Part shown: one piece after another, positions 49,962 to 52,593 of the stretch | Numbering within the stretch: the first letter of the stretch is position 1 | Layout: each line of letters starts with the position of its first letter | Source: Nostoc sp. UHCC 0870 | Lineage (GTDB): Bacteria; Cyanobacteriota; Cyanobacteriia; Cyanobacteriales; Nostocaceae | Direction: 5' to 3' | DNA length: 64,000 nucleotides | Assembly (NCBI RefSeq): GCF_022063185.1 | Contig: NZ_CP091913.1 | Location: forward strand, 2,109,501 to 2,173,500 | Program-made: the position numbers and the translations under genes | Notes under the pieces: model-generated | What the model saw: only the letters and a program-made list of their open reading frames with translations | What the model was told of the DNA's origin: nothing | Database searches by the model: none

Positions 49962-50122
49962 GAAATTTGGTAATTTGCCGATCAGCCATAATTTTAATAT
50001 TATCGGGTGGCTTTCGGCGTAAGTTTTGAGCAAGACAGGGAATAGGCAAATTTCTCAGGTTTTTGGTTGACTCTCATGGGAGCGATCGCACATGGGCGAA
50101 TATCATACTTATTACAGCAGCG

Positions 50123-50145
50123 AAAAAAAACCCCCTTTTGGGGGA
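50123..50145 (-). terminator. Perfect intrinsic terminator
   Basis: On the minus strand CCCCC-AAAA-GGGGG is followed by eight T residues. No protein gene ends here, which argues for the upstream sRNA. Confidence 0.9.
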
Positions 50146-50227
50146 TAGGATAATAGACGTTTATTCGTAGTACAATCTACTTTGTATAGTTAATTCGTCT
50201 ACGATCACGGTTATCACTGTGGTCGTT
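50123..50227 (-). ncRNA. Candidate small RNA with promoter, three stems and terminator
   Basis: On the minus strand a TAGAAT -10-like box (50239-50234) precedes a start near 50227. Three helices follow: ACGA-C-CAC with GTG-A-TCGT (50226-50219 and 50208-50201); TAGACG with CGTCTA (50201-50196 and 50159-50154) enclosing GTAG/CTAC (50180-50177 and 50170-50167); and a perfect terminator at 50145-50123. No ORF of note is inside. It stands alone between truB and the cupin gene and has the architecture of an independent sRNA of about 105 nt. I do not recognise it as a known family; Yfr1 and 6S do not fit. Confidence 0.55.
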
Positions 50228-50327
50228 TTCTTTATTCTACGTTGTGGAACTCAATACCGGGGTGAGGGGTCATAGCTCCCACCGCTAAATAGTAGGGGAG
50301 CAGGGGAGCAGGGGGAGACAAAAAATT

Positions 50328-50526
50328 AAGTAGAACAACTTGAAAAAACCAAACTATGTTAAGTAATGTAAAAAGACTAGGATTAAGTTCGTAGTAAGGA
50401 CTTTAGTCCTTTTTTGTTCCCTGCGGGACGCTCCGCGAACGGAGAGAACGCAGAGAGAACTAAAGTTCTCTCTACGAGACGCTCCGCGAACACTACAAAC
50501 CTTTAATTATTTACCCTGTTCTACTT
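50328..50526. repeat. Miniature inverted-repeat element (copy 2)
   Basis: AAGTAGAACA (50328-50337) and TGTTCTACTT (50517-50526) are perfect terminal inverted repeats. The interior shares TGTTAAGTAATGTAAA and CAAACCTTTAATTATTTA with copy 1 near 40.5 kb. It also contains two copies of GACGCTCCGCGAAC and a GAGAGAACTAAAGTTCTCTC palindrome. Another GGGACGCTCCGCGAA lies at about 51415. Confidence 0.75.
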
Positions 50527-50536
50527 ATTATTTGTT

Positions 50537-50878
50537 TTAATTTTCATCACGTCCGTGAATTTGGGCAGGGGGGCTAGTTGCTTCTACCGCAGTAAATGGC
50601 TCTAGAACTTTGTAGTGATGGTTTGCCCCTTTTGGTACTACCCAAGAACTTCCCGGTTCTAGTAATATCATTTGTCCTTCAATGTGCAGTTCTGCACGAC
50701 CATTAATTACATAACCAACGGTTTCATATTCACGGCTTGTTGGGTGTTTATCTTCTTCTGGTTGTTCATTTTCCCAAAGACGCATAGAAACAGTTTTGCC
50801 AGAGGCTAAATATTTCTGACCTAGTTTACCTTTGGGAGAATGGGTAGAGTCAATTTTTTTAACGCTGGTATCACTCAT
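50537..50878 (-). CDS. Cupin-domain protein
   Basis: The protein has 113 residues. The small beta-barrel cupin has motif 1-like REYETVGYVINGRAELHIEG and motif 2-like LEPGSSWVVPKGANHHYKV. Metal ligands are partly present (E and H). There is no signal peptide. It is likely a small binding protein or enzyme. It is the first of a run of same-strand genes that look stress-related (exported small protein, DJ-1/PfpI fusion, DUF2267). Confidence 0.85.
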   Translation of the reverse strand: MSDTSVKKIDSTHSPKGKLGQKYLASGKTVSMRLWENEQPEEDKHPTSREYETVGYVINGRAELHIEGQMILLEPGSSWVVPKGANHHYKVLEPFTAVEATSPPAQIHGRDEN

Positions 50879-50931
50879 AATTTCATCACCTTAAGGTTTG
50901 AGTACGACTGTGTTTAAAATTGTCTCCCAAT

Positions 50932-51318
50932 TTATCGTTGAGACTCCGGTCGTTGGTAATAACCACGTTTCTCACCAGTAATTGGCTCAACTGCTTTTCC
51001 TACTTTTCTTTGAACATTCTCTTTAAACTCTTTTGTAGCTTTAGGAGTTTCTTCATTTAAATTTAGCTTTTCTCGAACATTATCAACAGTTCCTTTGAGC
51101 TTTTCTTGGGCATTTCTTACTTGAGTATCATTTCTAATCCCTTCATTATCGGGTGTACCTTTGTAATAAATACCCTCTGGGGTTTTAACATCAGCCTGGG
51201 CAATCATGGCATTAGTGTATATAAAAGACTGACCTATAAAAAAGGTAGCTCCTATCAAACAAATAACTAGAACTTGACGCAGAAGAAAATTTTGTACCCA
51301 ATAAATTACGCGATTCAT
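50932..51318 (-). CDS. Exported/anchored small hydrophilic protein, low-temperature-induced type
   Basis: The protein has 128 residues from ATG 51318. An N-terminal membrane helix (about 12-35, VLVICLIGATFFIGQ) is followed by a polar, Lys/Glu/Asn-rich region (TQVRNAQEKLKGTVDNVREK, TKEFKENVQRKVGKA) resembling LEA-like or low-temperature-induced proteins of Nostoc. It ends TGEKRGYYQRPESQR. It would sit in the membrane with the tail outside the cytoplasm. No enzyme motif is seen. A GTG at 51330 is possible. Confidence 0.65.
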   Translation of the reverse strand: MNRVIYWVQNFLLRQVLVICLIGATFFIGQSFIYTNAMIAQADVKTPEGIYYKGTPDNEGIRNDTQVRNAQEKLKGTVDNVREKLNLNEETPKATKEFKENVQRKVGKAVEPITGEKRGYYQRPESQR

Positions 51319-51492
51319 AACATTCCTCACTTATTATCATGTGTATATTGATCATGGGAAATGAATTTGCAAAATTTGACATCTCAAACTCTTACTCTCT
51401 GCGTCTTCCCTGCGGGACGCTCCGCGAATGCGCCTCTGCGTGAGTAAATTCATACCCAAATTCAGCAACGCCCAATTTTGCTCCCTATTCCC

Positions 51493-52593
51493 TCACATCG
51501 AGACAGCCGCCCCTGTCGTCGGCTTAGGAGGCTTAACTTCAGCAGCCATCCGCGCCGTCCGATATAGCTCTACTAATCGCTGTTCATACTGCACTAAGTC
51601 TTGGTAAATTCCTTTAAAAATAGCCGTTGCAACTGGGTCAGTATACATTGCACACAAGTTACCAATATCACCAATCCCTGTTTGCAAATCACCCAAGGCG
51701 CAGCGTATCTGGTAAATGTCATCACTACCTGTAAAAGTTGCTTTCACCTTTGCATATTGATTGGCAATATTCGCGCCAAAAGAAGGTTTCTCACCGAGTC
51801 TGTGCAGATATGTTTCTAGTCTTTCAATATGGCGTTGTTTATTGACAATCATTTCTTGAAACAACGCCTTAGCTTGTGTATCCGATTCTTTTTCTACGTA
51901 ACTCTCCAGTGCTTCTAGTGAATAACGTTCTCCACCCAAAGCTGTATTCAAGCCGCGAACAATATCACCTTTAGTTGAACCACCCCAAGCATCAGCTAAT
52001 TTCCACCATTCTGCACCCGTATCTTTCTCATCTGGTAATGCAGCTTCTTTACCGCCATAACCCAAACGGCTCAAAATCGCCGTCGTGAAAATTGGTAAAT
52101 CTCCAGGTTCGCGGGATGTAATCAAGTTTCCATCAACTACCAATGGTTCATCTTGATAGTTTGCACCCGCATTAATCATATCTTTGCGGATAGCACTAAA
52201 ACCAGTAACTCGCTTACCCTGGAGCAAATCGCCTTCAATTAAAAGCTGTGGCCCATGACAAACCGCAGCCACCAATTTTCCTTGCTGCATCGCCTCTTGC
52301 ACAAAGCGGACTGTGTTGGGGTTGCGGCGCATTTTATCAGGGGCCATCCCACCAGGAATTATCACAGCATCAAATTCAGATGCGATCGCCTCTGTAGTGG
52401 TAGCATCAGCTTGTATAGAAAGTTTGCCTCGTTTGCCCTTGTATTTTTCATTCATCCGCGAACCAAGGACAACAACCTCAAACCCTGCTTGTTTCAGCCC
52501 ATTGCAAGGAATAATAAATTCTACATCTTCTACAGCTTGTTCAATCAGAATAGCTATTCTTTTTTTCCCAGAGTGATTATTATGGTTAGTCAT
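51493..52593 (-). CDS. DJ-1/PfpI domain fused to a ferritin-like helical domain
   Basis: The protein has 366 residues. Residues about 10-180 form a PfpI/YhbO-type DJ-1 domain with an acidic EQAVEDVEFI, IIPGGMAPDK, and the nucleophile elbow AAVCHGPQLLI with its Cys-His pair. Residues about 195-350 are helical (DIVRGLNTALGGERYSLEAL, QRHIERLETYLHRLGEKP), resembling DUF2383/ferritin-like stress proteins. DJ-1/PfpI proteins act as chaperones, glyoxalases or deglycases; the fused domain suggests a protective role. It lies between the small exported protein and the DUF2267 gene on the same strand. The fusion boundary is near residue 190. Confidence 0.85.
   Translation of the reverse strand: MTNHNNHSGKKRIAILIEQAVEDVEFIIPCNGLKQAGFEVVVLGSRMNEKYKGKRGKLSIQADATTTEAIASEFDAVIIPGGMAPDKMRRNPNTVRFVQEAMQQGKLVAAVCHGPQLLIEGDLLQGKRVTGFSAIRKDMINAGANYQDEPLVVDGNLITSREPGDLPIFTTAILSRLGYGGKEAALPDEKDTGAEWWKLADAWGGSTKGDIVRGLNTALGGERYSLEALESYVEKESDTQAKALFQEMIVNKQRHIERLETYLHRLGEKPSFGANIANQYAKVKATFTGSDDIYQIRCALGDLQTGIGDIGNLCAMYTDPVATAIFKGIYQDLVQYEQRLVELYRTARMAAEVKPPKPTTGAAVSM

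Follow-up and report, generated by a model that had tools for sequence, protein, structure and literature searches.

The intergenic stretch between truB and a cupin gene in Nostoc sp. UHCC 0870 appears to be a small-RNA gene that would be read on both strands. The better-supported and more deeply conserved RNA appears to be that of the plus strand, opposite to the strand proposed in an earlier sequence-only reading of this DNA. The plus RNA would carry a segment, GUAUAGUUAAUUCGUC, complementary to the translation start region of the mRNA of a CBS-PAS sensor kinase. The parts of the locus are listed below by their position in the window, the whole stretch of 64,000 nucleotides that was analyzed. 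Genomes are designated by G numbers, with G000 for the window genome.

50104-50109, plus strand: weak candidate -10 (CATACT) of the plus RNA; a -10-like hexamer lies upstream of an A-run in 13 of 16 homologs
50123-50233, plus strand: predicted small RNA of about 105 nt; covariance model match at 50125-50233, homologs in 19 genomes, hairpin conservation
50182-50199, plus strand: predicted seed, 18 nt pairing with the kinase mRNA start; alignment and an 18-bp contiguous helix
50201-50232, plus strand: predicted terminator with an 11-bp stem and a 4-nt loop, then TTTTCTT; fold and conservation of hairpin 1
50123-50227, minus strand: predicted RNA, complementary along its full length to the plus RNA; conserved -10 and terminator, 5' end placed from the -10
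50123-50144, minus strand: predicted terminator CCCCC-AAAA-GGGGG-T8; 13/13 genus genomes, and U-G pairs specific to the minus strand in G040 and G079
50234-50239, minus strand: predicted -10 TAGAAT; TARAAT in 13/13 genus genomes and G040
50259-50283, minus strand: imperfect inverted repeat GTGGGAGCTATGACCCCTCACCCC, candidate regulator site upstream of the minus -10; 13/13 genus genomes

Distribution and gene neighborhood

Each of the 13 genus genomes has one copy of the locus, and six more genomes of the family (G040, G079, G151, G154, G049 and, weakly, G231) bring the total to 19. The copies in G040 and G079 are divergent (about 75% identity), and those in G154, G049 and, more weakly, G231 were detected by a covariance model. 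Weak matches at the family and order level (L187-L193 and L218-L222) resembled generic hairpins or repeats and were discarded. The genes next to the locus differ among the genus genomes: truB adjoins it directly in the window genome only, and the cupin gene and other genes recur upstream (minus reading) in several. Because it is conserved amid differing neighbors, the locus is, judging from these comparisons, an independent conserved element, neither a truB leader nor a trailer of the cupin gene.

The earlier reading had proposed a probable undescribed small RNA, and a small RNA gene outside Rfam is supported, given the presence of the locus in 13/13 genus genomes, in differing contexts and with a conserved -10 and terminator. 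Its choice of the minus strand is less well supported, as the plus strand is conserved more deeply. Its minus-strand TAGAAT (50239-50234) and terminator (50144-50123) are both present as described, and, as it had stated, no protein gene was found to end at this terminator: no ORF of at least 60 aa does so, the cupin ORF ending at 50537 and truB starting at 50033, both on the minus strand. A cupin domain was confirmed in the neighboring protein. A small ORF within either RNA was also considered; the GTG-started frame of the minus strand varies in its end point and is shifted in G040, making coding unlikely from our unscored reading of the alignments.

Upstream on the minus strand (50537-52593), the cupin gene is accompanied by genes for a 132-aa protein without a Pfam match and a protease-I-like protein, and the three are again found upstream of the RNA in several relatives. 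In these relatives there is often also a 304-aa protein that resembles manganese catalase and that the window genome lacks at this position.

Strand of the conserved RNA

The sequence-only reading had proposed three helices of exact or near-exact complementarity on the minus strand. The TAGACG/CGTCTA stem is indeed exact in the window; however, its partner is changed in five of 13 close relatives (G003, G006, G008, G010 and G012), as well as in G040 and G079, and loss of the stems in close relatives was what that reading had itself named as evidence against its proposal. Hairpin 1 (50226-50201 in the minus reading) has two A-C mismatches on the minus strand in the window, while on the plus strand it forms an unbroken 11-bp stem followed by a pyrimidine-rich run.

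When a transition falls in a stem, pairing survives, as G-U, on one strand only. Across 15 sequences the consensus stem of hairpin 1 has no broken pairs on the plus strand, whereas the same sequences read as minus have four pairs broken and two more mostly mismatched. Counted as pairing cells in 16 sequences, 170 of 176 are paired on the plus strand versus 139 of 176 on the minus. In the outer seven pairs all changes keep plus pairing, each G-U on the plus strand being an A-C mismatch on the minus. Since transitions spare one strand only, this asymmetry suggests selection on the plus RNA; it is a strong but not overwhelming sign, resting on about six to eight independent changes, by our count, among related sequences. 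The C5/G5 hairpin behaves in the opposite way, with U-G pairs in G040 and G079 that keep it on the minus strand, as would be expected for a minus terminator.

Folding points in the same direction. The minus strand folds better than chance (z -2.87), but when the same stretch is folded on both strands the plus strand gives z -4.40 versus -2.83 for the minus, and the plus strand has the better z-score in 14 of 15 sequences. Both G151 and G154 have a perfect plus-strand TATAAT just 5' of the 5' hairpin and T7 after hairpin 1, and have no T-run for the minus terminator. In the genus the plus promoter is weak; the distance of the -10-like hexamer from the A-run varies among homologs, and the 5' end of the plus RNA, near this A-run, is uncertain. 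An internal plus promoter, TATAGT, was rejected as it is not kept in G151. The center of the 5' hairpin is inverted between the close relatives G151 (L214, CCCCCCCTGGGGG) and G154 (L215, CCCCCAGGGGGGG), resembling a flipped loop.

One alternative is the single minus-strand small RNA first proposed, with hairpin 1 serving merely to terminate plus-strand transcription and so protect the minus promoter from it. Promoter elements are best conserved on the minus strand, its terminator is a textbook one, and in several genomes a neighboring gene on the plus side is directed toward the locus. However, G079, G151, G154 and G049 keep the core and the plus terminator without the minus promoter elements, the minus RNA folds less well in all but one of the 15 sequences, and its longest helix with the kinase start is much shorter than that of the plus RNA (see below). 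We regard this alternative as unlikely. If the two-stranded reading is true, a promoter and terminator that convince by eye on one strand can mask a better-conserved RNA on the other.

Promoter and upstream element of the predicted minus-strand RNA

The minus -10 and hairpin 1 are 6-8 nt apart in 12 of the 13 genus genomes and in G040; in G009 an insertion displaces the -10. This insertion of about 20 nt (L126), between hairpin 1 and the -10, resembles a partial duplication of a terminator arm and T-run, with TCGTTTTTTTATTT occurring twice. The imperfect inverted repeat upstream of the -10 forms a 24-bp block, GTGRGAGYTRTSACCCCTCAYCCC in nearly all, which is located 18-19 nt upstream of the -10 in all genus genomes, while the sequence of the spacer between them varies freely. 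A block at fixed distance with a freely varying spacer looks like a promoter pattern.

The full pattern of the upstream element was found at the RNA locus only, with no other copies in the genus genomes searched. A regulon sharing this element was therefore rejected; the shorter TNACCCCTCAYCCC gives just scattered extra matches. Control by HetR was also rejected. HetR sites are reported to require GGGnnnnnCCC (PMC4192349), and this pattern is absent from the element, which has CCCC and no GGG at 5-nt spacing. Further upstream of the minus promoter, the gap at 50284-50520 is filled by interspersed repeats (CCCCTGCTCCCCTGCTCCCC and GGGACGCTCCGCGAACGG). Several other genus genomes have, near -85, an element resembling TAGGTTAMACTTTTT that the window genome lacks.

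Because the promoter elements and terminator are kept in 13/13 genomes, a fully overlapping minus antisense RNA is likely in the genus, as a partner of the plus RNA rather than the main product. An alternative is that the plus RNA acts alone, the minus promoter having no functional product or interfering by transcription only. The more distant homologs without a minus promoter fit this idea, but the conservation of the -10, the upstream element and the terminator together throughout the genus speaks against it, and we consider it distinctly improbable.

Complementarity to a sensor kinase mRNA

The core of the predicted seed (50184-50199, plus strand) is invariant in the genus, and the segment containing it sits directly 5' of the plus terminator hairpin. 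Targets were sought in the 13 genus genomes with one 12-mer of this core, from the complement of GUAUAGUUAAUUCGUC. One of the matching loci is common to all 13 and lies at the start of a gene encoding a CBS-PAS sensor protein. Its CBS and PAS domains were found by domain search, while its kinase and receiver parts were judged from the protein sequence. In the window genome this gene (G000:C1:2596895) is about 0.44 Mb from the RNA locus.

The segment can form a contiguous helix with the kinase mRNA over a putative start codon, 16-19 bp long in 13/13 genus genomes and 18 bp in the window genome. A conserved seed of this kind, able to pair with a translation start region, is expected of a trans-acting small RNA. 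The longest helix among 742 other start regions is 15 bp, 3 of 2000 shuffled RNAs reach at least 18 bp, and the minus RNA forms 8 bp at most with the same kinase start. Contiguous helix length was used here instead of raw duplex energy, since gapped duplexes made the background of the latter uninformative. The AUG under the helix is probably the start codon of the kinase, because the upstream ATG is lacking in most of the other family orthologs inspected. Outside the genus the helix is 16 bp in G040 and G079 and 15 bp in G151, and it is shortened by broken pairing to 12 bp in G154, 11 bp in G049 and 10 bp in G231. Beyond the core, one position co-varies (U-A versus C-G in G001 and G005). Predicted folds of the plus RNA leave the seed only partly open. 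In G004 the two genes share a strand, with 99 nt from the kinase stop codon to the RNA gene downstream.

Another possibility is that the 14-mer GACGAATTAACTAT acts at the DNA level, for instance by binding a protein, with no RNA pairing involved. It is present at the RNA locus, at the kinase start and in the spacer of a tRNA promoter or of the equivalent site without a tRNA, and the kinase site, exact or with one or two changes, is also kept in orthologs of 16 family genomes in which the model search gave no convincing RNA. The exact sequence GACGAATTAACTATGC occurs in 18 of 19 RNA-bearing genomes versus 6 of 16 others, a comparison confounded by phylogeny. Against a DNA-level signal, the RNA locus and the mRNA site differ mostly at positions where an RNA duplex would still pair as G-U, save in G154, G049 and G231. 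Moreover, the tRNA case is confined to a promoter spacer and to 5 of 13 genus genomes, and the segment of the RNA locus abuts an RNA hairpin conserved on the very strand that would pair. A purely DNA-level signal thus seems quite unlikely to us.

In the window genome this third site lies at L323, ~1625-1700 (G000:C1:4162137), and it also occurs in G006, G009, G010 and G012, with GACGAATTAACTAT in the spacer between the TTGACT and TATAAT of an apparent promoter. That promoter immediately precedes a tRNA-like gene, missing in G006, which itself follows a histidine-kinase-like gene. The site upstream of tRNA-Lys was rejected as a second target, being a promoter spacer and not a start region. ACGAATTA belongs to local repeats.

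Proposed mechanism

Returning to the two-stranded reading, the plus RNA would end at the conserved terminator hairpin and bind the kinase translation start region through GUAUAGUUAAUUCGUC, and pairing there would probably block initiation. In the genus, a second promoter would produce the complementary minus RNA. Since it would be fully antisense and would share the site found in the mRNA, the minus RNA could sequester the plus RNA, and the element upstream of the minus promoter would therefore indirectly set kinase synthesis. That the plus RNA represses the kinase and the minus RNA, bearing a copy of the target site, antagonizes it is a tentative reading, which we place somewhat short of an even chance. 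The fuller version, in which translation of the CBS-PAS sensor kinase is set jointly by the small RNA and by its own full-length antisense decoy, with a target-site copy and a regulated promoter dedicated to it, is more doubtful. If true, a heterocyst-forming cyanobacterial lineage would have a small RNA with a specific conserved predicted target, a signaling kinase, and possibly a built-in antagonist.

Comparison with known RNAs

An Rfam 15 search of the window gave nothing at the gathering threshold, and the best permissive matches were far below it. The gene thus appears to be absent from Rfam, although the predicted small RNAs of Nostoc PCC 7120 in PMC4734099 (Table S3, 327 entries) may include a homolog. 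The predicted RNAs resemble those of that set and the Nostoc small RNAs NsiR1, NsiR8, NsiR9 and NsrR1 in being intergenic with their own promoter and terminator; NsrR1 is described as a regulator of mRNA targets (PMC6166021, PMC7281752). The locus differs from NsiR1 (RF02399), and membership in that family was rejected: its model scores 13.1 bits here versus a 39-bit threshold, the score resting on a generic terminator.

The closest working parallel is found in Campylobacter jejuni, where the trans-acting small RNA CJnc190 represses translation at a ribosome-binding site and is antagonized by CJnc180, a cis-encoded RNA of the opposite strand (PMC8687705). In our case the target is a sensor kinase, and no sequence relation is expected. 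For an overlapping opposite-strand RNA with its own promoter, the minus promoter and terminator are kept in the genus, and the plus promoter is weak. The likeness is one of arrangement, a trans-acting repressor with an opposite-strand antagonist, and on the Nostoc side the two RNAs, their pairing and the antagonism are all predictions.
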